A DNA stretch of 64,000 bases from Pseudonocardia hierapolitana (GTDB taxonomy: Bacteria > Actinomycetota > Actinomycetes > Mycobacteriales > Pseudonocardiaceae). The DNA is taken from positions 6,634,001-6,698,000 of the forward strand of contig NZ_VIWU01000001.1 in assembly GCF_007994075.1 (NCBI RefSeq). Reading direction: 5' to 3'. The position numbers and the translations under genes are program-made. Below, piece after piece: positions 7,719-21,094 of the stretch. Below the pieces are notes generated by a model. It saw only the letters and a program-made list of their open reading frames with translations. It made no database searches and was not told where the DNA came from. Every line of letters starts with the position of its first letter. Within the stretch, counting starts at the first letter, position 1.

Positions 7719-7946
7719 ATCACGGTTCCGCGCCGGGTCTGTCACCGCAAGGAAAAGTGATGCACGCCACTGCTCGCGCGACCGCGGCAGCGCCGTCGTC
7801 AGCGCTGGCCGCGCGGTGATCGACGCTGCGAGGACGGGCGCCGCGTTGCCCCGTCGCGCCTCGCCGTGAGGGCGCCGGCGGACGTCCCGTGACCGGCCGT
7901 CCGGGCTGGACCCGGTAAGGGGGTGGCCATCAACATTTCGATCTTG

Positions 7947-7966
7947 TAGAGTGAGCGTTCCATACA
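7947..7966 (+). promoter_or_regulatory. Shared promoter/operator element, copy A (AAHS transporter)
   Basis: TAGAGTGAGCGTTCCATACA is the first of three near-identical 20-mers in this window (others at 9747 and 19359). The left end is a -10-like box and GCGTTCCATACA would overlap the transcription start. It lies about 95 nt before the transporter ATG, so this unit has a 5' leader that copy B lacks. Confidence 0.6.
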
Positions 7967-8032
7967 GAGAGCGTATCGCTCGGTCGACGCCTTCTTCCAC
8001 ATCGGCTCACGGCCCGCGTGCGCGGGCCCGGG

Positions 8033-8048
8033 TCGCAACGTCGCAACG
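8033..8048 (+). repeat. Tandem TCGCAACG leader repeat of the AAHS transporter
   Basis: TCGCAACG occurs twice head-to-tail, 13 nt before the ATG. A near copy (TCGCAACGTTGCAACG) lies 17 nt before the PIG-L gene at 54840. Both leaders also share GCGTATCGCT further upstream. This suggests a common regulatory leader. Confidence 0.5.
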
Positions 8049-8061
8049 AAGCGAGGTTCGT

Positions 8062-9456
8062 ATGAGCGTCCTTGAGCAGGTCAAGAGCGCACCGATGAGT
8101 CGTGTCCAGGCCAGGGCGGTCGCCCTGTGTCTCGTGATCAACCTGGTCGACGGGTTCGACCTCCTGGTGACGTCCTTCGTCGGGCCGACGATCGCCCGTG
8201 AATGGGGCCTGTCACCGTCGCAGTTGGGGATCCTGCTCAGCAGTGGCCTGGCGGGCATGGCCGTCGGGGCGTTGTTCCTCGCCCCGCTGGCCGACCGAAT
8301 CGGTCGTCGTCGCCTGACGTTGGGCTGTCTCGCCCTGGCTTCGCTCGGCATGCTGGCCGCGGCCGTGGCGCAGGACCTCGGGCAGCTCGTGGTCTGCCGG
8401 CTCGTAACGGGCGCGGCGGTGGGGGCGATGGCGGCGAGCCTGCCGGTGCTGGCCTCGGAGTACGCCAACCACAGGCGGCGAGGGCTGGTCGTTGCGCTGA
8501 TCACCACCGGGTACGGCCTCGGCGCGATCATCGCCGGCGTCGCGACGAGCCTGCTGATGGGTCCGTACGGGTGGCGGGCGGTGTTCGTGCTCGGATGCGT
8601 CGCCACCGCGATCCTGTTCGCGGTGGGTGTGCGCTACCTGCCCGAGTCGATGGACTACCTCGTGATCTGCCGTCCTCGGAACGCTCTAGCCCGGTTGAAC
8701 CGGATTCTCGTCTCGATCGGTCACCCGCCGGTCGAGAGCTTGCCGCAGGCCGTGCCCGCTTCCCGGAAAGTGGCCCTCGACGCGGTCTTCCGCGGCCGCA
8801 ACGCACTGCGCACCGTGCTGGTCTGGATCGCGTTCACGGCGGCGCAGATGACGTTCTACTTCGCCAGCTCGTGGACGCCGGGCCTGCTGTTGCAGGCGGG
8901 GATGTCCGACCAGCAGGGCGTCAGCGGGGGCGTGCTGTTCAGCCTCGGCGGCGTCACGGGTGCGGTGCTGCTGGGGTTCCTCGCGATGCGTGTCGAGCCC
9001 CGGCGGCTCACGGCGGCCTACTTCCTCGGCGCCGCGATCGCACTGGTCCTCTTCTCGGTCTCCCTGGGGTCGCTGGCCGGCGCGCTGGTGGTGGCCGTGC
9101 TCGTGGGGCTCCTGCTCAACGGCTCGGTGTCGGGCATCAACGTCATCGTCCCGGTCCTCTACCCGGCCGGGGCACGGGCGACGGCGCTCGGACTGGCCGT
9201 CGCGGTGAGCAGGCTCGGTGCCGTGCTGGCGCCGTTGCTGGCGGGGTTCCTGCTGCAGGCAGGATGGACTCCCGGGTCGATGTTCCTGATCTTCGCCGGG
9301 CCGGCCGTGGTCGGTGCCGGCGCAACGCTGCTGCTCGCCCGCGAGTCGCTTCCCCGTGCGACCGAGGGGGGTCCGTCGGCTCCCTCCGGCCCGTCCGGAG
9401 TCGCCCAGGAAGCGGCGACGCAAGGCGTGTCATCCCAGGTCGGGAGGGACTCGTGA
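8062..9456 (+). CDS. MFS transporter, aromatic acid:H+ symporter (AAHS) type
   Basis: A 464-residue protein with 12 predicted membrane segments. The first helix holds DGFDLL (the AAHS D-G-x-D signature), followed by the loop motif PLADRIGRRRL. AAHS members such as PcaK, BenK and MhpT import benzoates, hydroxybenzoates and related acids. I start at the ATG at 8062, where family similarity begins; weak GCGAGG precedes it. The stop overlaps the next start (GTGA), coupling it to a truncated isochorismatase gene. Placement before the hydrolase-hydroxylase-HyuAB unit and a shared promoter box suggest it imports the substrate of that pathway. The substrate itself is not evident. Confidence 0.9.
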   Translation: MSVLEQVKSAPMSRVQARAVALCLVINLVDGFDLLVTSFVGPTIAREWGLSPSQLGILLSSGLAGMAVGALFLAPLADRIGRRRLTLGCLALASLGMLAAAVAQDLGQLVVCRLVTGAAVGAMAASLPVLASEYANHRRRGLVVALITTGYGLGAIIAGVATSLLMGPYGWRAVFVLGCVATAILFAVGVRYLPESMDYLVICRPRNALARLNRILVSIGHPPVESLPQAVPASRKVALDAVFRGRNALRTVLVWIAFTAAQMTFYFASSWTPGLLLQAGMSDQQGVSGGVLFSLGGVTGAVLLGFLAMRVEPRRLTAAYFLGAAIALVLFSVSLGSLAGALVVAVLVGLLLNGSVSGINVIVPVLYPAGARATALGLAVAVSRLGAVLAPLLAGFLLQAGWTPGSMFLIFAGPAVVGAGATLLLARESLPRATEGGPSAPSGPSGVAQEAATQGVSSQVGRDS

Positions 9457-9710
9457 ACGCACCCGTGGTCGACGTCGGTCGCACGGCGGTGCTCGTCGTC
9501 GACATGCAGAACGACTTCGTGGAGGTGGGGGCGCCGCTGGAGTTCCCGGAGGGCCGCCGCATGCTCCCGGCCACCCAGAAGGTCCTGGACGCAGCGCGCC
9601 TGCGCGGGATGGCGGTCATCTACGCCGCGCATGTCCACCGCGCCGACGCGGTCGGACCTGGGCATCCATCGGACCTGTATCCGCCGCTCGCGGCGGGCGA
9701 GCTGCCCTGA
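9453..9710 (+). pseudogene. Isochorismatase-like hydrolase, truncated after about 85 residues
   Basis: The GTG overlaps the transporter stop by 4 nt. The product begins like the cysteine-hydrolase/isochorismatase family: TAVLVVDMQNDFVEVG holds the first catalytic Asp, and an AAHVHRADAVGPGH region follows. It then ends after LYPPLAAGELP, where normal members run to about 180-220 residues with the catalytic Lys and Cys. Both later catalytic residues are therefore missing. The next promoter starts 36 nt after the stop, so the rest was probably lost by deletion. It may still be translated but should not be an active amidase. Confidence 0.8.
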
Positions 9711-9746
9711 GCTGGCGCGACCGTCGTCGGTGAACACAGGATCTGT

Positions 9747-9766
9747 TATAGCGTGCGTTCCATACA
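9747..9766 (+). promoter_or_regulatory. Shared promoter/operator element, copy B (hydrolase-hydroxylase-HyuAB operon)
   Basis: TATAGCGTGCGTTCCATACA, preceded by TGT (an extended -10 pattern). It shares 17 of 20 positions with copy A. The Shine-Dalgarno AGGAGG begins on its last base, so the leader is very short and any protein bound to the GCGTTCCATACA half would cover the start site. Confidence 0.65.
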
Positions 9767-9776
9767 GGAGGTGAAG

Positions 9777-10559
9777 GTGGCAAGCGTCTCGGAGGATGCC
9801 GGCCGGGGTCCGGTCCTCGTCCTGCTCCACGGCGGCGGACCGGGTGTCGACGCCGCGAGCAACTGGGCGACGGTGCGCTCCCGGCTCTCGTCCGGGTTCC
9901 GCTGCCTCGCTCCCGACCTGCTCGGCTTCGGCACGCAGATCGCGGGAGGGGAGGCCGGCGTCGGCGGGCTCCGCGGGCCGGCCGCCTGGGCCCGGGCCCG
10001 GGCAAGACAGGTGGTACGCCTGCTCGATGATCACGGGCTGCGGCGCGTGCACCTCGTCGGCAACTCGGCCGCGGGCGGTGCCGCCGCGCTGGCTCTGATG
10101 GCCGCGGCGCCCGGCCGGGTCGAGCGCGCCGTCCTGATGGGCGGCGCAGGCACCGGGCCGCTGCCCGGCACCGTCCCCTTCTACGACGAGCCCACGAGGG
10201 AGTCCATGCGCGCCGCCCTCGCCCGCCTGGTCGCCGACGAGCGCGCCCACGGCGAGCTCCTCGACGACCTCGCGGCCCGCCGGCTGGAGCAGGCTCTGCG
10301 CCCCGGCGCCGAGGCCGCCTTCCGGTCCATGTTCGACGACGTCGCCGACGCGCCGCGCGTCGACCCCGCGACCGTGCGCACCCCGGTCCTCGCCCTGCAC
10401 GGGGAGCGCGACCAGGTGAGCCCGGTCGACGTCTCGAGGCGTCTGGTCGACGCTCTGCCCTGCGGGCGCCTCGAGGTCGTGGCGGGGGCCGGTCACTGGA
10501 TCCACGTCGACCGACCGGACGAGTTCTGCACCCTCGTGGGGGAGTTCCTGAGCGCATGA
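9777..10559 (+). CDS. Alpha/beta hydrolase, C-C bond (meta-cleavage product) hydrolase type
   Basis: A 260-residue alpha/beta hydrolase. The oxyanion region LLHGGGPGVDAASNW is typical of meta-cleavage product hydrolases (MhpC, BphD, HsaD). The nucleophile elbow is GNSAAG and the C-terminal His lies in GAGHWIHVDRP. An unusual Ala-rich elbow replaces the common GNSMGG. The start is GTG at 9777, 5 nt after AGGAGG. It overlaps the hydroxylase gene by ATGA. Together with an aromatic hydroxylase and HyuAB it could cleave a C-C bond in a diketone or ring-fission product; the exact substrate is unknown. Confidence 0.85.
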   Translation: MASVSEDAGRGPVLVLLHGGGPGVDAASNWATVRSRLSSGFRCLAPDLLGFGTQIAGGEAGVGGLRGPAAWARARARQVVRLLDDHGLRRVHLVGNSAAGGAAALALMAAAPGRVERAVLMGGAGTGPLPGTVPFYDEPTRESMRAALARLVADERAHGELLDDLAARRLEQALRPGAEAAFRSMFDDVADAPRVDPATVRTPVLALHGERDQVSPVDVSRRLVDALPCGRLEVVAGAGHWIHVDRPDEFCTLVGEFLSA

Positions 10560-12196
10560 ACGACGAAGCCGGCAGTCACGAGAACCGCGTCGGTGTCCTC
10601 GTCGTCGGCGCCGGGCCCACGGGCTTGACCCTCGCCATCGACCTCGCGCGGCGCGGTGTGCCGTGCCACGTCGTGGAGGCGACGACCGAGCGGCCCGTGA
10701 ACCCTAGGTGCAACACGACGTCCGCGCGGTCGATGGAGATCTTCCGGCGGCTCGGGATCGCCGACGAGATCCGGCGCTCCGGCCTGCCCGAGGACCACCC
10801 GAGCTCGGTCCAGTACCGGACGACGCTGCGCGGCGAGGAGATCTTCCGCCTCGACCTGCCGTCCGCCGCCGAGGTGCTGGCCGGGGTCGGCAGGGACTCC
10901 TGGCCCACCCCGGAGCCGCAGCACCGGATCTCGCAGCTGTTCCTGGAACCCATCCTGGAGCGGCACGCGCGCGAGCTCCCCGGGCTGACCCTCGAACGCG
11001 GTACCCGGCTGATCGAGCTGCGCCGGCACGTGGACCACGTCGAGGCGGTCGTCGAGTCCGGCGAGCACGAGGGCGCCACGCGGGTTCTGCGTTGCGACCA
11101 CGTGGTCGGCTGCGACGGCCCCCACAGCGCGGTCCGGCGGCAGCTCGGGATCCGCTACCAGGGTGTGGACGCGATCCGGAAGTTCGTCTCGACGTTCGTG
11201 CGCTCGCCCGAGCTGGGGCGGCTGGCCGCACGCGACCGGGCGTGGACGTACTGGACCTACGGCCGCAGCCTCGCATCACTGATCGCCATCGACGGGGACG
11301 AGCTGTGGCTCCACCACGTCGCCTTCGACCCCGACCACGACACCGACGGCGAGGACCCCGAGCGACTGCTGCGAGAGGCCGTCGGCGGCCCCGTCGAGCA
11401 CGAGGTCCTCGGCGTGGTGCGCTGGACCGGGCGCCAGCTGGTGGCCGAGCGGTACCGGGACGGGCGGGTGTTCCTGGCCGGCGACGCCGCCCACCTCTGG
11501 ATCCCCGTCGGCGGGTTCGGGATGAACGCCGGCATCCAGGACGCGGCCACCCTGGGCTGGATGCTGGCGGCGGTGCACCACGGCTGGGCGCCGCCGGACC
11601 TGCTGGCCGCCTACGAGTCCGAACGCAAGCCGGTGGGGGAGCAGTTCGCCGGCGCGGTGGCCTCGGCCGCGCGGGCGTCCCTCGCGGAGGTCTCGCCCGA
11701 CATCCACCTGGCCGGCCCGGAGGGCGAGCGCGCCCGCGCGGCGCTCGCCGACCGGCTCGCGGTGACCGAGCCGCACCGGTACTCGCCCGACGGCTTCAGC
11801 TTCGGCTACCACTACGCGGGCTCGCCGCTGGTGGTCGGAGGCGAGGAGCAGCCGGTCATCAGCATGGGCGACTACCAGGAGCGGGCGCGGGTGGGCTTCC
11901 GGCTGCCGCACGCCTGGCTCCCCGACGGCCGGTCCGTGCTCGACGTGCTCGGACCCGACTTCACCCTGCTGCGGACCGACACCGGCGTCGACGTCGAGTC
12001 GTGGATCGAGGCGGCCGGCGAGCAGAAGGTTCCCCTCACCGTGGTCGATCTGCCCGCAGGTCTGCCCGACCGGTATCCGGCCGCGCTCCTGCTCGTGCGC
12101 CCGGACCAGCACGTGGCCTGGATGGGCGGCGCGGACGGCCGGCCCGACGAGTTGCTGCAGACAGTCACCGGGCGCGGGGCCGCCCACCAGCGGTAA
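10556..12196 (+). CDS. FAD-dependent aromatic monooxygenase (phenol/MhpA-type hydroxylase)
   Basis: A 546-residue class A flavoprotein monooxygenase. It shows GAGPTG at residues 18-23, the NAD(P)H/FAD DG motif (GCDGPHSAVRR) and the second FAD motif GDAAHLWIPVGGFGMN. A C-terminal thioredoxin-like extension follows, as in PheA, TfdB and MhpA. Such enzymes hydroxylate a phenolic ring with NAD(P)H and O2, often making the catechol that an extradiol dioxygenase opens. It overlaps the upstream hydrolase by 4 nt and lies 19 nt before HyuA, so the three are one transcript. The natural substrate is not evident. Confidence 0.9.
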   Translation: MNDEAGSHENRVGVLVVGAGPTGLTLAIDLARRGVPCHVVEATTERPVNPRCNTTSARSMEIFRRLGIADEIRRSGLPEDHPSSVQYRTTLRGEEIFRLDLPSAAEVLAGVGRDSWPTPEPQHRISQLFLEPILERHARELPGLTLERGTRLIELRRHVDHVEAVVESGEHEGATRVLRCDHVVGCDGPHSAVRRQLGIRYQGVDAIRKFVSTFVRSPELGRLAARDRAWTYWTYGRSLASLIAIDGDELWLHHVAFDPDHDTDGEDPERLLREAVGGPVEHEVLGVVRWTGRQLVAERYRDGRVFLAGDAAHLWIPVGGFGMNAGIQDAATLGWMLAAVHHGWAPPDLLAAYESERKPVGEQFAGAVASAARASLAEVSPDIHLAGPEGERARAALADRLAVTEPHRYSPDGFSFGYHYAGSPLVVGGEEQPVISMGDYQERARVGFRLPHAWLPDGRSVLDVLGPDFTLLRTDTGVDVESWIEAAGEQKVPLTVVDLPAGLPDRYPAALLLVRPDQHVAWMGGADGRPDELLQTVTGRGAAHQR

Positions 12197-12215
12197 GAAC
12201 CCACCAGGAGAGCAC

Positions 12216-14318
12216 ATGCCATACGCACTGGGCATCGACGTCGGCGGGACGTTCACCGACGCCGTCGCCTCCGACGGCGCCGGCCGGATCGTCTCGGCCA
12301 AGACGCCGACGACCCCGCCGCAGCGCGAGGTCGGCGTCATGCGTGCGATCGAGGAGCTCGCCGCCGAGCTGGGCATCGGCGTCGGTGAGCTGCTCGCGCA
12401 GACCGACTACATCGCGCACGGCACCACGGCCTCGATCAACGCGCTGGTCCAGGGGACGGTCGCCGACGTCGGGCTGATCGCCACCAAGGGGCACCGGGAC
12501 TCGATCTACATCATGAACGCCGAGGGCCGCACCCTCGGCCGCTCGGCCCACGAGATCCAGGACACCCTCCGGCAGCGCAAGCCCGCGCCGCTGATCCCGA
12601 AGTACCGCGCGCTGGAGGTCACCGAGCGGATCGACCACGCCGGCACGGTCCTGGTCCCGCTCGACGAGGACGAGGTCCGCAGCGTCGCGCGGACCCTGGT
12701 GGAGCAGGGCGTCGAGGCGATCGCGGTGTGCCTGCTGTGGTCGTTCAAGAACGGCGCCCACGAGCGGCGGGTCCGCGAGCTGATCCACGAGATCGCCCCC
12801 GAGATGTACGTGACGCTCTCCTGCGAGGTCAGCCCGCGCATCCGCGAGTTCGCGCGGGCCTCCACGACGATCATGAACGCACAGGTCGGGCCCCGCCTGC
12901 GCACTTACCTGACCCCATTGCAGGAGCAGCTGGAGGAGGGTGGGCTCAAGGGCCCGCTGCTGGTCATGCAGAGCGAGGGCGGCACCATCACGGCCGACCG
13001 GGCGCCCGAGCACGCCATCACGACGGTCGGGTCCGTCCTGTCCGGCGGCGTCATCGGCGGTCAGCGGCTGGCCGAGCAGCTCGGGCACCGCAACGTCATC
13101 ACCACCGACGTCGGCGGCACGACCTTCCTCGCGGGCCTGATCGTCGACGGGGCGCCGGTCATGGCGCCGGGCTCCATCGTCAACCAGTTCCCGATCAACG
13201 CCGCGACCATCCGGGTGCACACGATCGGTTCCGGCGGCGGCGCGCTGGCGGCGGTGGACGCAGGCGGGAACCTCCGGCTGGGCCCGCAGAGCGCCGAGGC
13301 GGTCCCCGGCCCCGCCTGCTACGCAGCCGGCGGCACGCGGCCCACCAACACCGACGCGAACCTGGTGCTCGGCATCCTGAGCGAGCGGGGACTCCTCGGC
13401 GGGCGCAAGCCGCTGCGGCTGGACCTGGCCCGCGAGGCGATCCGCGAGCACGTGGCGCAGCCGCTCGGGCTCACCGTCGAAGAAGCCGCGATCGCCATCC
13501 ACGAGGTGCAGAACGCGCAGGCGGGAGACCTCCTGCGCCGCGCCGTCGTGCAGGCGGGCTACGACCCCCGCGACTTCGTCGCCTACGCCTTCGGGGGCGC
13601 CGGCCCCGCCCACTGCGCCGGCTACTGCCAGGACCTCGGAGTGAGCGAGGTAGTCGTGCCGCTCGGGCCCGTCGCGTCCGCGTTCTCGGCATACGGGCTC
13701 GCGGCCTCGGACGTCGCCCTGAGCGCCGAGCTGTCCGATCCGTCGTCCTTCCCGGTCGACCACACCGTGCTCGAGTCCCACTACGCCCGGCTCGAGGCCG
13801 ACCTCGAGCGCGCCCTCGACCAGCAGAAGGTCAAGTTCCACGACGTGACGCTGCAGCGCGAGATCGACCTGCGCTACTCCATGCAGGTCAACGAGCTCGC
13901 GGTCACCCTCCCGGACACGGGGTTCACCCACCGCACCGGCGACGAGATCCTCGAGCGCTTCGAAGAACAGTACGAGCGCATCAACGGCTCCGGAGCCGGC
14001 TACCGCGAAGCAGGCGTGCAGGCGATCACCTACCGCATGCGGGCCAAGGCGTCCCTCGGCTTCCCCGTCGTGCTGCCGGATCTCGGGCGGGCCGACGGCC
14101 CCGACCCGGCCGGCGCACTCCTCGAGGAACGCGCCGTCTGCCTCGATTCCCAGATCGGCTTCGTGCCCACCCCCGTGTACGACTACGCCCGGCTCCGCGC
14201 GGGCCACGAGATCACCGGGCCTGCGATCGTCGACGTGCCGACCACCGTGGTCGTGGTCCCCGCCGGTGTGACCGGCCGCGTCGACCGCCTCGGCAACCTC
14301 GTGCTGCGCTACCGATGA
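12216..14318 (+). CDS. HyuA-type hydantoinase/oxoprolinase, acetone carboxylase beta-like subunit
   Basis: A 700-residue protein with an N-terminal ASKHA-type phosphate-binding start (GIDVGGTFTDAV), the hydantoinase/oxoprolinase core (VITTDVGGTTFLAGL, HTIGSGGGALAAVD) and the late AFGGAGPAHC motif. The family covers ATP-dependent 5-oxoprolinases, N-methylhydantoinases and the ATP-hydrolysing subunit of acetone and acetophenone carboxylases. It begins at an ATG behind AGGAGAG and precedes HyuB by 28 nt. In a cluster with an aromatic hydroxylase and a C-C hydrolase, a carboxylase role on a ketone is more likely than hydantoin hydrolysis, but that is inference. Confidence 0.88.
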   Translation: MPYALGIDVGGTFTDAVASDGAGRIVSAKTPTTPPQREVGVMRAIEELAAELGIGVGELLAQTDYIAHGTTASINALVQGTVADVGLIATKGHRDSIYIMNAEGRTLGRSAHEIQDTLRQRKPAPLIPKYRALEVTERIDHAGTVLVPLDEDEVRSVARTLVEQGVEAIAVCLLWSFKNGAHERRVRELIHEIAPEMYVTLSCEVSPRIREFARASTTIMNAQVGPRLRTYLTPLQEQLEEGGLKGPLLVMQSEGGTITADRAPEHAITTVGSVLSGGVIGGQRLAEQLGHRNVITTDVGGTTFLAGLIVDGAPVMAPGSIVNQFPINAATIRVHTIGSGGGALAAVDAGGNLRLGPQSAEAVPGPACYAAGGTRPTNTDANLVLGILSERGLLGGRKPLRLDLAREAIREHVAQPLGLTVEEAAIAIHEVQNAQAGDLLRRAVVQAGYDPRDFVAYAFGGAGPAHCAGYCQDLGVSEVVVPLGPVASAFSAYGLAASDVALSAELSDPSSFPVDHTVLESHYARLEADLERALDQQKVKFHDVTLQREIDLRYSMQVNELAVTLPDTGFTHRTGDEILERFEEQYERINGSGAGYREAGVQAITYRMRAKASLGFPVVLPDLGRADGPDPAGALLEERAVCLDSQIGFVPTPVYDYARLRAGHEITGPAIVDVPTTVVVVPAGVTGRVDRLGNLVLRYR

Positions 14319-14346
14319 GGACGGGCTACCAGTGAGGACGACTCCC

Positions 14347-16671
14347 ATGGCATCGACGATTCCCGGGGCGGACGAGTTCACCAGCCGCCCCCTCCCTCGC
14401 GCCGAGCTGCTGGCGCAGATCTCGCCCGCGTTGCCGCTGCACGAGATCGACGACGAGCAGGCCGAGCAGGTCGACGCCCTGACCTACGAGGTCGTCCGGC
14501 ACCGGCTCTGGGCGATCACCCAGGAGATGGGGGAGACGCTGCGGCGGATGTCGGGCTCGCACGTCGTCACGGAGTCGAACGACTTCAACTTCTCCATCTG
14601 CGACGAGCTCGGCGAGCAGGTCCAGGTCGGCACCTACAACATCGGCCTCATCGGCTCGATGGACCTCGCGATCACCTGGACGCTGCGCCACCGCAGCGAC
14701 AACCCGGGGATCGAAGAGGGCGACATGTTCCTGTGCAACGACCCGTGGATCGGCGGCGGGCTGCACCAGAACGACGCGGCGATCCTGGCTCCGATCTTCC
14801 ACGAGGGCAGGCTCTTCGGCTGGACGACGGCCATCGCCCACCAGGTCGACCTGGGCGGCCCGCGCCCGGGCTCGTTCAGCCCCTCTGCCCAGGACGTGTT
14901 CGGTGAGGCGCTCCCCACCCCACCGATCAAGGTCGTCCGGGGTGGGGTGCTGCAGCGCGACGTCGCCGACGCGTGGGTGCGCCGCTCTCGGCTCCCGCAC
15001 ATGGTGGGGCTGGACCTGCGAGCGAAAATCGCGGCGAACAAGGGCGCGGCGGAGCAGATCCTCCGTCTCATCGCCAAGTACGGCGTCGACACCGTCAAGG
15101 CGGTGATGCGCCGCATGATGGACGACGCCGAGCGCCGCCTGCGGGCGAAGCTCGCGGCCCTGCCCGAGGGCACCTGGACCGCGGTGGGCTACCAGGAGCA
15201 GTCGCAGACCGGCGACCGCGGTCTGCACGCGATCAAGGTGGCGATGACGAAGGAGCGGGACCGGCTGGTCTTCGACTTCCGCGGGACCGCCGAGCAGACC
15301 GGGATCATCAACTGCCCGTACCCGGGCCTGCGCGCCGGGATCGTCTTCACCATGCTGCCGCTGCTGGCGGGCGACATCCCGTGGGCGGCGGGCGGGCTCA
15401 TGCGCTGCTTCGAGATCATCACCGACGAGGGCACCATCACCAACGCCTCGTTCCCGGCCGCGGTGGGCAAGGGTCCCTTCGGACCGGCGTGGGGCGCGGG
15501 CAACCTCGTCGCCGAGGTGCTCGCCAAGATGCTCGACGCCGAACCCGCGCACCGCACCGACGTGCAGTCGATCTGCAACGGCACCACCGACCTGTGCGTG
15601 GTGTCCGGTGTGGACGTTCGCGGCGGCGGCAGCAAGGGGTTCGTCACGCCGGTCTTCGACGTCATGGCCGGTGGCTACGGCGCCCAGGTGCACCACGACG
15701 GGGTCGACACCGGCGGCCGGCTCATCATCCCCTCCGCGCGGGCCCCTGACGTCGAGATGACCGAGTACCTCTACCCGCTCGTCGCGCTGTGGCGCCGCGA
15801 GCAGACCGACTCGGGCGGGCCGGGTCGGCAGCGGGGTGGGATGAGCGGTTCGGTCTGCTATGTCCAGCACCCGGACCAGCACGGCACGATGTCGCTGGTC
15901 GTGTCCGGTACCGGCAAGGTCGCCAACCAGAACGTCGGCCTCACGGGCGGCTACCCGGGCAACTCCCAGCTCGACCTGGTCGTGCGCGGCGTCGACGTGC
16001 CCCGGCTCGCCGGCGCGACGGCCGTTCCCGCCGCCCTGGACGAGCTCGGCGGCGAGATCGAGGTCCTGCCCTGCGAGGGGGAGTCGATTCTCGGGCCCGG
16101 GGACGCGCTGTTCCTGCACTGGCAGGCAGGCGGGGGCTACGGCGATCCGCTGCTGCGTCCCGCGGAGAGCGTGCGCGACGACGTGCTGCAGGTGCGGGTC
16201 TCGGCCGCCGCCGCGCGCGACGTCTACGGCGTCGTCCTCCTGGAGAACGGCGAGGTGGACGAGACCGCGACCGACCAGACTCGCGAGAAGATCCGGCGCC
16301 GACGCGCGGTGGAGTCGGGTCTGCCCGACGCGTGGCTCGCGCCGATCGTCGAGCCGGACCTCGTCGGTTCGCGACGCCTCGACGACAACCTCGCCGTCCT
16401 GGACACGCCGGCGGGGCGGACCGTCACTTGCACCCACTGCGGCACGGAGATCGGGCGCCTGGACGGCGGAGACTTGGTGGCGGCGCTCGCCCGCCGCGAC
16501 GCCCCGCCCACCGATGCCGGACCCCACATCTGGCGTGACCCGTCGGTCTACGTCGATGCCGAGGTGGTGTTCCGGCAGCTCTTCTGCCCGGGCTGCCTGA
16601 CGGCCGTCTACTCCCGGGTCACCCCGGTCGACCATCCGCTGCCCGATGACGACTACCGGAGCTGGGCGTGA
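14347..16671 (+). CDS. HyuB-type subunit with C-terminal acetone-carboxylase-gamma-like zinc domain
   Basis: A 774-residue protein. Residues 30 to about 620 match HyuB/acetone carboxylase alpha (RRMSGSHVVTESNDFNFSIC; MFLCNDPWIGGGLHQND; WQAGGGYGDPLLR). The last 90 residues carry two cysteine pairs, C695-x2-C698 (CTHCG) and C747-x2-C750 (CPGC). They resemble the small zinc-binding gamma subunit of acetone/acetophenone carboxylases, here fused to the large subunit. The ATG at 14347 has GAGGA 8 nt upstream; a GTG at 14332 is possible. The fused gamma domain argues for carboxylase rather than hydantoinase chemistry. It ends the operon. Confidence 0.87.
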   Translation: MASTIPGADEFTSRPLPRAELLAQISPALPLHEIDDEQAEQVDALTYEVVRHRLWAITQEMGETLRRMSGSHVVTESNDFNFSICDELGEQVQVGTYNIGLIGSMDLAITWTLRHRSDNPGIEEGDMFLCNDPWIGGGLHQNDAAILAPIFHEGRLFGWTTAIAHQVDLGGPRPGSFSPSAQDVFGEALPTPPIKVVRGGVLQRDVADAWVRRSRLPHMVGLDLRAKIAANKGAAEQILRLIAKYGVDTVKAVMRRMMDDAERRLRAKLAALPEGTWTAVGYQEQSQTGDRGLHAIKVAMTKERDRLVFDFRGTAEQTGIINCPYPGLRAGIVFTMLPLLAGDIPWAAGGLMRCFEIITDEGTITNASFPAAVGKGPFGPAWGAGNLVAEVLAKMLDAEPAHRTDVQSICNGTTDLCVVSGVDVRGGGSKGFVTPVFDVMAGGYGAQVHHDGVDTGGRLIIPSARAPDVEMTEYLYPLVALWRREQTDSGGPGRQRGGMSGSVCYVQHPDQHGTMSLVVSGTGKVANQNVGLTGGYPGNSQLDLVVRGVDVPRLAGATAVPAALDELGGEIEVLPCEGESILGPGDALFLHWQAGGGYGDPLLRPAESVRDDVLQVRVSAAAARDVYGVVLLENGEVDETATDQTREKIRRRRAVESGLPDAWLAPIVEPDLVGSRRLDDNLAVLDTPAGRTVTCTHCGTEIGRLDGGDLVAALARRDAPPTDAGPHIWRDPSVYVDAEVVFRQLFCPGCLTAVYSRVTPVDHPLPDDDYRSWA

Positions 16672-16825
16672 TGCCCGGGAGGACGGTCGCCTCGTTCGAC
16701 CCGCCGGCCGGCGCTCCGGTGTCGAGGCGGCGGGACCCGGGGGAGCGGTCGCAGCACGTGGCACGAACCGCGGAGCATCAGGCAGGGGCGGCGTTCCTGC
16801 GCGGAGCCGTACCTATCATGGCTCC

Positions 16826-17443
16826 GTGGTGAGGGAACCGGGCTCGACATCGTCCACTGTCGGCGCGAGCAGCCGCGACCTCATCCTGGACGCGGCTCGA
16901 GACCTCATCACGAAGAACGGCTACGACGGCATGGCCGTCTCGGACCTGTGCGCGCAGTCCGGGCTGCCGGCCAGTTCGGTCTACTACCACTTCGGCAACA
17001 AGCTCGGTGTCCTGGCCGCGCTGTTGGAGCGCACCTTCGACGAGTTGCACGCGTTGTTCCCGAACCCGTCCTCGTTCGACGGTCTCGAGCCGATCGATCG
17101 CCTCGAGGCGTGGTTCACGGCGGCGTGCGACTCCCTCGATCGGCGCCCGGACTACCTTCGTCTCCTGCTGGCCGTCAGCGTCGGCCCGCACAAGGACTCC
17201 GAGACGGTGGGCGCCACCGTCCGGCGCATCCGCGACTCTGCGCACGCGTCCTGGGTGGACGCCCTCACCCCCGTCCTCGCGCCGCACGGAGACGAGGACG
17301 GCAAGGCCATGGTCGAGCAGCTGGCCGTCCTCGGGCGGGCCATGACCGACGGGCTGTCGGTGGCCAACAGCCTCGACGGGGCCACGTACAGCTCGAACGT
17401 TGCCCCGTTCGTCGCCCTGATCCGCGGATTGGTGCGACAGTGA
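16826..17443 (+). CDS. TetR/AcrR family regulator
   Basis: A 205-residue TetR protein. The N-terminal helix-turn-helix covers about residues 15-60 (ILDAARDLITKNGYDGMAVS, then GLPASSVYYHFGNK), and the ligand domain is variable. There is no Shine-Dalgarno. TATCAT ends 6 nt before the GTG at 16826, so the mRNA is probably leaderless. It follows HyuB by about 150 nt on the same strand with its own promoter and may be the regulator of the shared promoter boxes. That is untested: no copy of the box lies in its own promoter. Confidence 0.87.
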   Translation: MVREPGSTSSTVGASSRDLILDAARDLITKNGYDGMAVSDLCAQSGLPASSVYYHFGNKLGVLAALLERTFDELHALFPNPSSFDGLEPIDRLEAWFTAACDSLDRRPDYLRLLLAVSVGPHKDSETVGATVRRIRDSAHASWVDALTPVLAPHGDEDGKAMVEQLAVLGRAMTDGLSVANSLDGATYSSNVAPFVALIRGLVRQ

Positions 17444-17520
17444 GGCGGCCCGGGGCAGTGACGGGTACGTGACGTGCGCCGGACCGCAGTAATCGGCTCG
17501 ACGGAGGACCACCGGGGAAC

Positions 17521-18537
17521 TCAGGCCGCGGCGCGTGCGGCGAGAGGCCGGCGACGCAGGCTCGGGTCCTGGATGGCCGGCGGCTGGTAGGCCTGGTCGA
17601 GCGCACCGATGTCGCTGCCGGGCGGGACGATCTCGTCGATGCGGTCGAGCACGTCGTCGGAGAGGGTGACGTCGAGGCCGGCGAGCAGGTCGTCGAGGTG
17701 CGCTTCGGTCCGCGCGCCGAGGAGCGCGCAGGTGACGCCGGGGTGGCTGATGGTGAACGCCATCGCGAGGTGGGTCATGGGCAGGCCCGCCTCCGCGGCG
17801 AGCGGGACGAGCTGCTCGACCACGTCGAGCCGGTGCTCGTCGGTGAGGTGCCGGACCAGGCCGGCGCGGCGCAGGTCGTTCTGGTCGCGGCGGGCGCGTC
17901 CGGTGAGCAGCCCTTGCCCGAGCGGGCCCCAGACCAGGGTGCCCATACCGAATCGCTGGGCGGTGGGCAGGACCTCGCGTTCGACGCCGCGGTTGAGGAT
18001 GGAGTAGGCGGGCTGCTCGGTGTGGAACCGCGCGAGGCCGCGCCGCTCGGCCACCCACCGGGCCTCGATGATGTCGGCGGCCGAGGAGTGGGAGGCGCCG
18101 ATCGCGCGGACCTTGCCGCTGCGGATCAGGTCGGTCAGCGCGGCGAGGGTCTCCTCGATGTCGGTGTCGGGGTCGGGGCGGTGCAGCTGGTAGAGGTCGA
18201 TGTGGTCGGTCTGCAGCCGTCGCAGCGAGTTCTCGACGGCGGTGACGATCCAGCGTCGCGAGGCACCCTGGTGGTTCGGGTCCTGCCCGGTGGGACGGCT
18301 GAACTTGGTGGCGAGCACGACGTCGTCGCGGCGGCCCTTCAGCGCCTCGCCGACCACCTCCTCGGAGTCGCCGTAGGCGTCGGCGGTGTCGATGACGTTG
18401 ATGCCGGCGTCGATGGCCTTGTGGATGATCCGGGCGGAGTCCCCGGGGTCGTTGCCCATGGACGTCGCGAACATCAGCGCGCCGAGGGCGTAGGGGCTGA
18501 CCTTGATGCCGGTCCGGCCGAGGGTGCGGTACTGCAC
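17521..18537 (-). CDS. Aldo/keto reductase
   Basis: A 338-residue (beta/alpha)8 aldo/keto reductase. It has the strand GVNVIDTADAYGDSEE-type motif (here INVIDTADAYGDS, with catalytic Asp and Tyr), Lys in VLATKFS, His in LYQLHRPDP and the NADP-binding tail region GARTEAHLDD. It reduces aldehydes or ketones with NADPH. The GTG at 18537 has AAGGAGAG 5 nt upstream. It is divergent from a TetR gene with paired palindromes between them, so it is very likely the repressor's target. Confidence 0.9.
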   Translation of the reverse strand: MQYRTLGRTGIKVSPYALGALMFATSMGNDPGDSARIIHKAIDAGINVIDTADAYGDSEEVVGEALKGRRDDVVLATKFSRPTGQDPNHQGASRRWIVTAVENSLRRLQTDHIDLYQLHRPDPDTDIEETLAALTDLIRSGKVRAIGASHSSAADIIEARWVAERRGLARFHTEQPAYSILNRGVEREVLPTAQRFGMGTLVWGPLGQGLLTGRARRDQNDLRRAGLVRHLTDEHRLDVVEQLVPLAAEAGLPMTHLAMAFTISHPGVTCALLGARTEAHLDDLLAGLDVTLSDDVLDRIDEIVPPGSDIGALDQAYQPPAIQDPSLRRRPLAARAAA

Positions 18538-18583
18538 GGATCTCTCCTTCGTGCTGGTCGGCGCGGCCGGGGATGCCGTACCG

Positions 18584-18629
18584 TAAGCGGAATAACTTTC
18601 CGGAACTATACGGAATGGCATTCCGCTTA
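18584..18629. promoter_or_regulatory. Paired TetR operators between the aldo/keto reductase and TetR genes
   Basis: Two 15-bp palindromes of the form CGGAA-N5-TTCCG lie at 18588-18602 (CGGAATAACTTTCCG) and 18611-18625 (CGGAATGGCATTCCG). Outer arms TAAGCGGAAT (18584) and ATTCCGCTTA (ending 18629) are also complementary. The symmetry and divergent context fit autoregulation by the TetR gene at 18649. Confidence 0.7.
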
Positions 18630-18648
18630 TGCAAGCCGAGGTGGTGGA

Positions 18649-19242
18649 GTGACGCAGGACACGACGCCGGCGCCGCGCCGGCGGCGCGCCGACGCGCGGC
18701 GCAACGTCGACGCGCTGCTCGAGGCCGCGCGGACCGTCTTCGACGCCTCCGGGGTGGACGCGCCGGCGAAGGAGATCACCGACCTGGCCGGTGTCGGGGT
18801 CGGCACGCTGTACCGGCACTTCCCGCAGCGCTCGGACCTGGTGAAGGCCGTGGTGGAGAGCGGGATCGACGCCGTCGCCGAGGCCGGCCCGGCACTGGCT
18901 GCCGCGTTCGAGCCGGCGGAGGCGCTCGAACGGTGGATCGACCGGTACGTCGAGCTGCTCGGCACCAAACGGGGGCTCGCCTCGGCGCTGCACGCGGGCG
19001 ACCCGGCGTTCGCCGGGCTGCCCGACTACTTCATGCAACGGCTCGGACCCACCCTCTCGGCGCTGCTCGACGCCGGCGTGGCCGCGGGGGCGATCCGCGG
19101 CGACATCGGCGCCGAGGACCTCCTGTACGCCGTCGCCCAGCTGTGCCGGCCCGTGCCCGGACGCGGGCCCGAGCACGGGCGGCGGATGGTCGGAGTCCTG
19201 GTCGACGGCCTGCGCTGTGGAGGCGGGCAACAGCGGCCGTGA
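18649..19242 (+). CDS. TetR/AcrR family regulator, divergent from the aldo/keto reductase
   Basis: A 197-residue TetR protein with an Arg-rich start (PRRRRADARRN) and the helix-turn-helix EITDLAGVGVGTLYRHFPQRSDL at about residues 38-60. The C-terminal half is a SbtR-like ligand domain. The GTG at 18649 follows GAGG by 7 nt. Paired palindromes in the intergenic region make it the probable repressor of the reductase and of itself. The ligand may be an aldehyde or quinone substrate of the reductase, which is inference. Confidence 0.88.
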   Translation: MTQDTTPAPRRRRADARRNVDALLEAARTVFDASGVDAPAKEITDLAGVGVGTLYRHFPQRSDLVKAVVESGIDAVAEAGPALAAAFEPAEALERWIDRYVELLGTKRGLASALHAGDPAFAGLPDYFMQRLGPTLSALLDAGVAAGAIRGDIGAEDLLYAVAQLCRPVPGRGPEHGRRMVGVLVDGLRCGGGQQRP

Positions 19243-19358
19243 GGAGATAGGTCAACCCCAGCGCCGTGCCCGTGTCCGAACCGCGGGCATCGGCGGCACA
19301 TCTGCGCGATCGCGCGTCGAGTCGGGGGCGGGCCATGTGATGACGCGACGCGGAGTCG

Positions 19359-19378
19359 TATAGTGAGCGTTACATACA
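19359..19378 (+). promoter_or_regulatory. Shared promoter/operator element, copy C (hydrolase-extradiol operon)
   Basis: TATAGTGAGCGTTACATACA matches copy A at 18 of 20 positions. It has a TATAGT -10 box and lies 20 nt before the hydrolase start. It links the extradiol unit to the two upstream catabolic units. Confidence 0.65.
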
Positions 19379-19398: not shown

Positions 19399-20217
19399 GT
19401 GACGACCATGGTGGATGTCGGGGACGCCGAACTGGCCTACACCGAGTTCGGTACGGGCAGTCCGGTCGTGTGGCTGCACGGTTCGGGGCCGGGTGCCACC
19501 GGCATGAGCAACTTCGGGGCGAACCTGTCGGCCTTCGCGGCCTACCGGAACGTGGTGGTGGACCTTCCGGGTTGGGGCCGTTCGCCACGGTCCGCGACGG
19601 ACGAGCCGTTGATCTTCCACGCGGCGGAACGCGTGTGCCGCGCGATGACGGCGCTCGGGATCGACCGAGCCCATCTGGTGGGCAACTCCTACGGCGGCGG
19701 CGTCGCGATGCGGATCGCCGTGGCCCATCCGGAGCGGGTGGATCGACTGGTTCTGATGGCGCCCGGCGGCGTTCTCCCTGAGGATGCGCCGCCGTGGCCG
19801 GTGGGGCTGGAGCACCTCTTCGGCTACATGGCGGCCGAGAAGCCCTCACGGGAGGCGATGGCACAGTTCGTCCGTCTGATGGTGTACGACGAGTCGTTGG
19901 CGACCGATGCGCTGATCGACGAGCGGTACGAGTCGAGCCTGCGGGCTCATCCCGAGCTGCCGATCCCTCCGAACTTCGGCGACCTCACGCCCGACCTGGC
20001 GCGGATCGGTGCACCCACGCTGCTCGTGTGGGGCCGGGAGGACCAGACCGTGCCGCTGACGTGGGCGTCGACGATCCTGCGCGGCATCCCCGACGCGGAG
20101 CTGCGCGTTCTTCCCCGATGCCGGCACTGGGTGCAGTACGAGCGTGCGCCGGAGTTCAACCACATCGTTCGAGAGTTCCTGCAGGGCGGAGCCGCGGCCG
20201 CCACGTCGGAGGGATGA
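19399..20217 (+). CDS. Alpha/beta hydrolase, meta-cleavage product hydrolase type
   Basis: A 272-residue hydrolase with the oxyanion loop VVWLHGSGPGATGMSNFG, the nucleophile elbow GNSYGGG, an acid in WGREDQTVP and the catalytic His in RCRHWVQYERAPEFN. This is the BphD/HsaD/TodF pattern: hydrolysis of the vinylogous diketone made by extradiol ring cleavage, giving a dienoate and an acid. The GTG at 19399 follows GGAGG by 7 nt. The extradiol dioxygenase gene starts 7 nt after its stop, which supports this pairing directly. Confidence 0.9.
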   Translation: MTTMVDVGDAELAYTEFGTGSPVVWLHGSGPGATGMSNFGANLSAFAAYRNVVVDLPGWGRSPRSATDEPLIFHAAERVCRAMTALGIDRAHLVGNSYGGGVAMRIAVAHPERVDRLVLMAPGGVLPEDAPPWPVGLEHLFGYMAAEKPSREAMAQFVRLMVYDESLATDALIDERYESSLRAHPELPIPPNFGDLTPDLARIGAPTLLVWGREDQTVPLTWASTILRGIPDAELRVLPRCRHWVQYERAPEFNHIVREFLQGGAAAATSEG

Positions 20218-20224
20218 GGCCGTC

Positions 20225-21094
20225 ATGGGCATCTGCAAGCTGGGCTACGTCGGTCTCGAGGTCACCGACGTCGACGCGTGGGTGGATCTGTTCGGGCGCA
20301 CGCTGGGTGTCGGGGTCACGCCCGCCAAGATCGGTACGCAGGAGGTGGCCCTGCTCGAGCTCGACGAGTTCAAGTACCGCCTCGCGCTGCATCCGTCCGC
20401 GCAGGACCGCCCGCGGGAGGTGGGGTGGATCGTCGATTCCCCGCGCGAGCTCGACAGGCTCACCCAGCGGCTGACCGACGCCGGCTTCGCTGTCGGGGAG
20501 GGATCCGCGGACGAGGTCGAGCTGCGCGGTGCCACCCGGCTCCGCTGGTTCACCGACCCCGTCGGCTACCGGGTGGAGTTGGCGGTCGGTGAGGCCAAGG
20601 TGCGGACCGGTCCGGCCCGCCCGGCCGATGCGCGACCCGGGGTCACCGGTCTCGGGCACATCGTGCTGGCCGGTCCGGAGCTCGCCGAGCTCCGTGAGCT
20701 CTACGAGTCCGTGCTCGAGTTCAGGCTGACCGACTACCGCGCTCCCGGCCTGTACTTCCTGCGCTGCAACGCCACTCACCACAGCATCGCGCTGGCGCGC
20801 GCGGACACCCCGTCCATCCACCACCTCGAGATCGAGCACGGCTCGATCGACGACGTCGGGCGCGCTCACGACCGGGCCCTGGCCAACGGCGTGCCGATCT
20901 CGATCAGCCTCGGCCGGCACATGAACGACAAGGCCATCTCGTTCTACGTCAGGAACCCCAGCGGGTTCCACCTCGAGATCGGATGCGGTGGCATCGAGGT
21001 GGGCGAGGGGTGGATCCCCCACGATTTCGGGACGTCGGACGTCTGGGGTCACCGGCACGCGGACGCCAATCCCTTCGCGTCCCCCGCATCGTGA
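20225..21094 (+). CDS. Extradiol ring-cleavage dioxygenase, type I (VOC, two-domain)
   Basis: A 289-residue two-module VOC protein like BphC/HsaC. Candidate Fe(II) ligands are H145 (GLGHIVL), H200 (IHHLEIE) and E251 (FHLEIG). Second-shell H232 (GRHMND) and Y241 (FYVRNPSG) sit at the spacing of the 2,3-dihydroxybiphenyl dioxygenases. It would open a catechol next to one hydroxyl using O2. It lies in an operon with the C-C hydrolase upstream and a very small gene downstream. The catechol side chain cannot be deduced. Confidence 0.92.
   Translation: MGICKLGYVGLEVTDVDAWVDLFGRTLGVGVTPAKIGTQEVALLELDEFKYRLALHPSAQDRPREVGWIVDSPRELDRLTQRLTDAGFAVGEGSADEVELRGATRLRWFTDPVGYRVELAVGEAKVRTGPARPADARPGVTGLGHIVLAGPELAELRELYESVLEFRLTDYRAPGLYFLRCNATHHSIALARADTPSIHHLEIEHGSIDDVGRAHDRALANGVPISISLGRHMNDKAISFYVRNPSGFHLEIGCGGIEVGEGWIPHDFGTSDVWGHRHADANPFASPAS

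Follow-up and report, generated by a model that had tools for sequence, protein, structure and literature searches.

A recurrent 20-bp promoter element and its candidate TetR-type repressor in catabolic gene clusters of Pseudonocardia hierapolitana and other actinobacteria

What controls a group of catabolic genes when one short sequence is repeated before several of them and more than one regulator gene lies in their midst? This question is raised by a 64,000-nucleotide stretch of the Pseudonocardia hierapolitana genome (contig NZ_VIWU01000001.1, positions 6,634,001 to 6,698,000), which we call the window. Here a 20-bp element, the box, occurs three times before genes that seem suited to degrading a ring-shaped compound, namely those for a transporter, hydrolases, a flavin hydroxylase, a hydantoinase/oxoprolinase pair (HyuA and HyuB) and an extradiol dioxygenase (Table 1). 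We found that the box recurs in distant actinobacteria together with TetR1, a TetR-family protein encoded in the same block, and the box is therefore most likely TetR1's docking site. Judged from sequence comparison, the boxes are probably promoter/operators that TetR1 binds and represses.

The three 20-mers lie on the forward strand where the first-pass annotation of this DNA had placed them, and they are identical at 16 of 20 positions, varying at positions 3, 6, 8 and 14. At ≤3 mismatches the pattern TANAGNGNGCGTTNCATACA has three matches in the window against 0.05 expected, a number reached in 0 of 100 shuffles. The same search of the 8,856,958-base genome gave five matches, namely the three boxes without mismatch and, at 4.14 and 8.16 Mb, two sites with 3 mismatches; reading the pattern backward likewise gave five, so the two additional sites are at chance level. 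Occurrences scattered away from gene starts had been named as the result that would count against a promoter element, and beyond the three boxes the 8.86-Mb genome has no site at ≤2 mismatches. A weight matrix built from 54 sites, all outside the window, ranks the boxes far above the next best window position (-5.6 bits), with chance expectations per genome of 2e-6 for box 1, 0.011 for box 2 and 4e-8 for box 3; the fixed positions of this matrix are partly imposed because its sites were collected with a pattern. Boxes 1 and 3 are real beyond doubt, and box 2, which differs from the consensus in having C at position 6 and T at position 8, is clearly above chance.

Does the box occur elsewhere? 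A scan of public contigs with a loose pattern returned at least 116 loci, of which 12 high-G+C loci from 11 genomes with a consensus-like box were kept by eye and 104 dropped. The copies come from Streptomyces (three species and one further Streptomyces), Amycolatopsis (two), Lentzea (two), Nonomuraea (one), Kribbella and Actinoplanes. A tighter consensus, TANAGTGANCGYTMCATACA, matches exactly in 13 of the at least 116 loci listed (11 actinobacterial genomes and one low-G+C metagenome-assembled genome), and nine more have one mismatch. Exact sites also dominate the mismatch-tolerant scans, with 8 of 8 in a 394-genome sample of the class, 12 of 13 in Streptomyces (both ≤1 mismatch), and 28 of 45 in the box-reached genomes (≤2 mismatches). 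Among 149 related genomes (G and L numbers denote genomes and loci), exact boxes occur at four sites in G008, two in G030 and two in G052, and G086 has four sites at 1-2 mismatches to the first-pass pattern. Pattern matches occur in 25 of these 149. Apart from the five cluster genomes, the other 20 have 23 sites in all: measured against the tight pattern, 22 show 3-5 mismatches and were judged to be chance, and one, in G117, has a single mismatch.

The genes that follow the box are largely the same from genome to genome. The fetched loci hold 57 distinct sites, the window's three included, while some sites of the box-reached genomes lay outside them. Next in line is the transporter at 17, hydrolase 2 at 17, hydrolase 1 at four, isochorismatase at two and the dioxygenase at one, so that 41 of 57 precede transporter/isochorismatase/hydrolase-1 or hydrolase-2/dioxygenase units. 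The remainder comprises other genes (14), a doubtful reading frame (1) and an unassigned site (1). A common regulon, proposed from the window, is thus borne out comparatively: the same box stands before orthologous units in many genomes.

Could the boxes simply descend from a single promoter that was spread when the cluster was duplicated or transferred, and that is conserved as a strong core promoter with no dedicated regulator? Promoter-plus-gene duplication does happen, as extra boxes before copies of the hydrolase 2 5' end in G008 and G540 indicate (by eye), and some of the downstream names come from frames that open with a few hydrolase-2 codons and look like truncated copies (by eye). 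The boxes at L151:4386, L151:4967 and L227:1061 have this appearance, a few hydrolase-2 codons followed by unrelated sequence. Nevertheless, we consider this explanation very improbable. The other next genes include an aldehyde dehydrogenase, short-chain dehydrogenases/reductases (SDRs), a zinc-dependent alcohol dehydrogenase, an FAD-linked oxidase and a maleylpyruvate-isomerase-like protein; two genomes have a small ATPase-domain protein there. The mismatch-tolerant searches mostly gave exact sites, and the conserved stretch extends beyond the -10 to about +8, whereas the spacer and the flanking sequence differ between sites, with positions 1-20 partly fixed by the collecting pattern.

The geometry of the sites is that of a promoter. 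Hexamers resembling TTGACA (at least 4 of 6 bases) lie 17 bp upstream of box position 1 at 21 of the 57 sites and 16 bp upstream at 10, against 0 to 5 sites at each other spacing from 8 to 35. Box positions 1-6 are therefore the -10, in agreement with the '-10-like left end' of the first-pass annotation. In the window box 1 has a -35-like hexamer at 17 bp and box 3 a weak one at 16 bp, and box 2 has no recognisable -35 upstream. Position 3 tracks the promoter class, being G in 16 of 17 transporter promoters and T in 14 of 17 hydrolase-2 promoters. The projected leader after the box is at least 80 nt long in 14 of 17 transporter promoters; the window's own transporter leader (7967-8061) measures 95 nt and carries a GC-rich inverted repeat, seen by eye.

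Since each copy of the element covers both the -10 and the start region, an alternative sigma factor, and not a repressor, might recognise it, and a gene resembling those for extracytoplasmic function (ECF) sigma factors adjoins a box in G008 (L150:6472-6930, by eye). We find this scarcely credible, however. As in housekeeping promoters, the -35 region varies and, at 16-17 bp, resembles TTGACA, and by eye, with no profile scan made, no ECF-like gene recurs in the other cluster maps.

Which protein, then, binds the box? TetR1 has an N-terminal TetR_N domain (PF00440, E 5.7e-12, 45.7 bits against a cut-off of 24) that places it in the TetR family. In the helix-turn-helix part (residues 32 to 63), 26 of the 32 residues are invariant or show 90% conservation across 26 aligned orthologues, and among the matches listed the closest annotated relative is from Pseudonocardia alaniniphila (85% identity). 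In the class sample TetR1 (E ≤1e-40) is present in three of 394 genomes and the box (≤1 mismatch) in exactly those three, the other 391 having no box at this tolerance (Fisher p 1e-7, uncorrected for relatedness). Five of the 149 relatives encode TetR1 (E ≤1e-30) and all five have cluster boxes; the tight pattern at ≤1 mismatch finds six box genomes there, G117 being the one without TetR1 (Fisher p 1e-8). Starting from the box, 11 of 11 actinobacterial genomes encode exactly one TetR1 orthologue (68-75% identity). Starting from the protein, seven of 392 Streptomyces genomes have TetR1: G339 and G365 were already in the class sample, G574 and G763 have the coordinates of the box-reached G534 and G539, and the three newly reached (G765, G852 and G887) all have exact boxes. 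None of the 56 TetR1-negative Streptomyces tested has a box at ≤1 mismatch. G536 shares the coordinates of G339 and is therefore not independent; counted by coordinates, 20 distinct genomes carry both TetR1 and box.

Two other regulators recur near these genes. The first, c2, is a second TetR often found near the clusters. Its upstream regions carry the motif [AC]CGTTC[TG]NT in 12 of 15 cases, against 1 of 15 for TetR1 and 0 of 6 for c7, the other regulator, and they contain the box in 2 of 15. Orthologues of c2 at ≥60% identity are present in 14 of 17 box genomes and missing from the other three, G000 (best 44%), G030 (best-scoring match 39%) and G008 (53%). Given its other motif and its absence from three box genomes, we rejected c2 as the box binder. 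The c2 genes at L214, L217, L221, L224 and L228 have a ACGTTCTAT-type upstream motif and are perhaps autoregulated. The other regulator, c7, is encoded by an IclR gene divergent from an FAA-hydrolase-family (hydratase-like) gene (L216:4465-5299, L220, L231). A palindrome, GTTCCRTG...CGGAAC, lies upstream in 3 of 6 cases, and one of the six regions contains the box, in an intergenic space shared with a hydrolase-2 promoter; c7 was rejected on account of this other motif. Boxes 1 and 2 contain GTTCCAT, which resembles half of the c7 palindrome, whereas position 14 is A in box 3 and in 43 of 47 compared sites. The first-pass annotation had pointed to the TetR gene at 16826 for a binding test, a hint that agrees with the two-way co-occurrence and with the separate motifs of c2 and c7.

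Several points weigh against assigning the box to TetR1. HyuA (≥90% identity) and the dioxygenase (≥79%) are confined to the same five of the 149 relatives; they co-occur with the box equally well, so we can only infer the pairing of TetR1 with it. The whole cluster moves together, and what singles out TetR1 is only that it is the regulator common to these genomes. A box lies within 250 nt upstream of TetR1 itself in only 2 of 15 cases. The box has only a weak form of the dyad symmetry to be expected in a TetR operator, and no clear palindrome was found. Centred between positions 10 and 11, the dyad pairs 4.9 of 10 positions, compared with 2.7 when columns are permuted (uncorrected p 0.04); of the 19 centres tried, two others reach similar p values. 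In G117, which has no TetR1 orthologue at 1e-30, an SDR gene is preceded at about 86 nt by a 1-mismatch box (L158:10169). An exact match to the tight pattern in L125, a metagenome-assembled genome of 37% G+C, falls beyond the high-G+C actinobacteria and may be chance; this locus was among the 104 dropped, the search for TetR1 orthologues covering the genomes of the 12 loci kept. Finally, the tight consensus and the c2 and c7 motifs were all read by eye before being counted.

These points leave room for another regulator, unlinked or global, that binds the box while TetR1 simply accompanies the cluster and has another target; the equal co-occurrence of HyuA and the dioxygenase and the box-like site of G117 would both fit. 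We regard this as unlikely. A global regulator should leave boxes in genomes that lack the cluster, and none was seen at ≤1 mismatch in the 391 class genomes or the 56 Streptomyces above. Moreover, Streptomyces aurantiacus (G534) retains both TetR1 and boxes although they lie on different contigs, whatever their true distance, and the two recurrent linked regulators have upstream motifs of their own, c2 being missing from three box genomes as well.

How might the switch work? We propose that each box would be a combined promoter and operator. Positions 1-6 (TAKAGT) would form the -10 of a housekeeping-type promoter, with transcription expected to start near position 13, and the 20-21 bp element (G)TAKAGTGANCGYTMCATACA would be the operator of TetR1. 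In the absence of inducer, TetR1 would cover the -10 and start site and keep RNA polymerase from the transporter operon, from the hydrolase-2/dioxygenase unit and perhaps, in this genome, from hydrolase 1 also; a substrate or intermediate of the pathway would then release it. TetR1 itself would be made from a separate, probably leaderless promoter and would usually not be autoregulated through a box. A CTATCAT-type -10 stands just before the TetR1 start in 12 of 15 upstream regions, CCTATCATGG being the window's version, and the window's TetR1 promoter (16800-16826) appears leaderless, with CTATCAT immediately before the start.

Why does box 2 stand where it does? In the window the isochorismatase gene stops after 85 codons, and box 2 begins 36 bases past the stop. 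A full isochorismatase gene is found in G052 (196 aa) and L118 (208 aa) and only the 3' part in G008, and the place is without the gene in G030 and G086. Hydrolase 1 is the first gene of its unit, with a box before it, in G339 and G534. In none of the compared cluster maps is hydrolase 1 separated by a box from a transporter or isochorismatase gene upstream of it, so the internal position of box 2 is seen only in this genome. Box 2 could restore regulated expression of the genes from hydrolase 1 to HyuB. The start of hydrolase 1 (GTG 9777) was chosen from the ribosome site AGGAGG at 9766-9771; the mechanical start, GTG 9753, lies inside box 2.

Table 1. Boxes, -35-like hexamers and genes of the locus, with positions in the window
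Feature	Position	Strand	Description and evidence
-35-like hexamer TGGCCA	7924..7929	+	17 bp before box 1; compare TGGTCA/TAGCCA in other transporter promoters
Box 1	7947..7966	+	Putative promoter/operator of transporter operon; predicted -10 TAGAGT; start site expected ~7959; matrix 39.2 bits
MFS transporter, aromatic acid/H+ symport type	8062..9456	+	Pfam MFS_1; TIGR00895 352 bits, under cut-off 418.55; start ATG 8062
Truncated isochorismatase-like gene, 85 aa	9453..9710	+	Pfam Isochorismatase, profile 1-52 of 175
Box 2	9747..9766	+	Weaker variant; predicted -10 TATAGC; last base overlaps AGGAGG ribosome site; matrix 22.3 bits
Alpha/beta hydrolase 1	9777..10559	+	Pfam Abhydrolase_6/_1
FAD-dependent aromatic hydroxylase	10556..12196	+	Pfam FAD_binding_3, Rng_hyd_C; NF004780 579 bits, over cut-off 445
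HyuA, hydantoinase/oxoprolinase A	12216..14318	+	Pfam; caprolactamase alpha (CapA) 499 bits, under cut-off 1000
HyuB, hydantoinase/oxoprolinase B	14332..16671 (start may be 14347)	+	Pfam
TetR1, proposed box-binding repressor	16826..17443	+	Pfam TetR_N; co-occurrence; alignment
Aldo/keto reductase	17521 to ~18550	-	Between TetR1 and box 3
Second TetR	18649-19242	divergent from aldo/keto reductase	Between TetR1 and box 3
Weak -35-like hexamer GTGATG	19337..19342	+	16 bp before box 3; TTGATG at same place in G030
Box 3	19359..19378	+	Putative promoter/operator of hydrolase-2/dioxygenase unit; predicted -10 TATAGT; start site expected ~19371; matrix 45.4 bits
Alpha/beta hydrolase 2, meta-cleavage-product hydrolase type	19399..20217 (start GTG 19399)	+	Pfam; NF045632 HsaD 238 bits, under cut-off 400
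Two-domain extradiol dioxygenase, BphC/HsaC type	20225..21094	+	Pfam Glyoxalase + BphC_D1 on 20144-21091; PDB relatives are BphC

What the cluster degrades is less easily read from its enzymes. The boxes had been described as preceding aromatic-type units on one strand; the placement and the strand hold, and the word 'aromatic' derives from enzyme families only. Compared with caprolactamase (CapAB) and acetophenone carboxylase, HyuAB stays under the curated cut-offs for CapA (Table 1), CapB (211 of 1000 bits) and ApcC (403 of 1500). The dioxygenase does so for BphC (TIGR03213, 212 of 366) and HsaC (NF045631, 179 of 450), and hydrolase 2 for HsaD (Table 1) and BphD (TIGR03343, 186 of 462). We therefore rejected naming a substrate from these families. 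As stated in the first-pass annotation, the block contains no IclR gene, according to gene calls that were read and Pfam comparison of selected regulators, with no profile search of the whole window. By eye, the aldo/keto reductase and second TetR between TetR1 and box 3 (17521-19242) look like a separate divergent pair, and inverted repeats between them, TAAGCGGAAT...ATTCCGCTTA, resemble that pair's own operator.

Searches of the literature, judged by titles and the openings of abstracts in partial result listings, found no publication on this regulon, and the box strings matched unrelated work only. We read it as a new TetR/operator regulon of a known kind; the gene switch is well supported but ordinary. 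A more ambitious proposal is possible, and we stop just short of favouring it as a whole. It holds that a regulon spread over distant actinobacterial genera, not found in print, would control a meta-cleavage pathway likewise not found, in which HyuAB, as an ATP-dependent ring opener of hydantoinase type, and a flavin hydroxylase would supply the extradiol dioxygenase. A single 20-bp element would serve as -10/start region and as a nearly non-palindromic TetR operator, and in this genome a further copy just after the truncated isochorismatase gene would split one operon into two.

What would such a pairing offer? It gives a TetR subfamily rich in close homologues (172 proteins at E ≤1e-25, of which the best 120 were listed) a likely operator, and box and TetR1 together provide a marker for finding the whole regulon of the pathway. 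The putative operator is a short one found at few promoters, and if the pairing is true, TetR1 and box could serve as a substrate sensor.

How does TetR1 compare with known regulators? KstR is a TetR-type regulator of cholesterol catabolism, and HsaC and HsaD are enzymes of steroid catabolism. Relatives of HsaC and HsaD are encoded under the boxes, a likeness to the KstR system, but TetR1 itself differs from KstR, scoring 22.9 bits against the cut-off of 280 for the KstR model NF033703. The best sequence matches to TetR1 in the PDB, 5d18 (E 4.1e-23) and 6a4l (4.8e-23), cover nearly the whole chain at only about 85 bits. Other repressors of catabolic clusters are EdcR, a repressor of estradiol catabolism situated inside its own gene cluster (PMC8700777), and PheR, which represses a phenanthrene catabolic cluster (PMC13273656). 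Both are described from other bacteria and for other pathways. Likened by description only, they and TetR1 have in common that a repressor is tied to the catabolic pathway.

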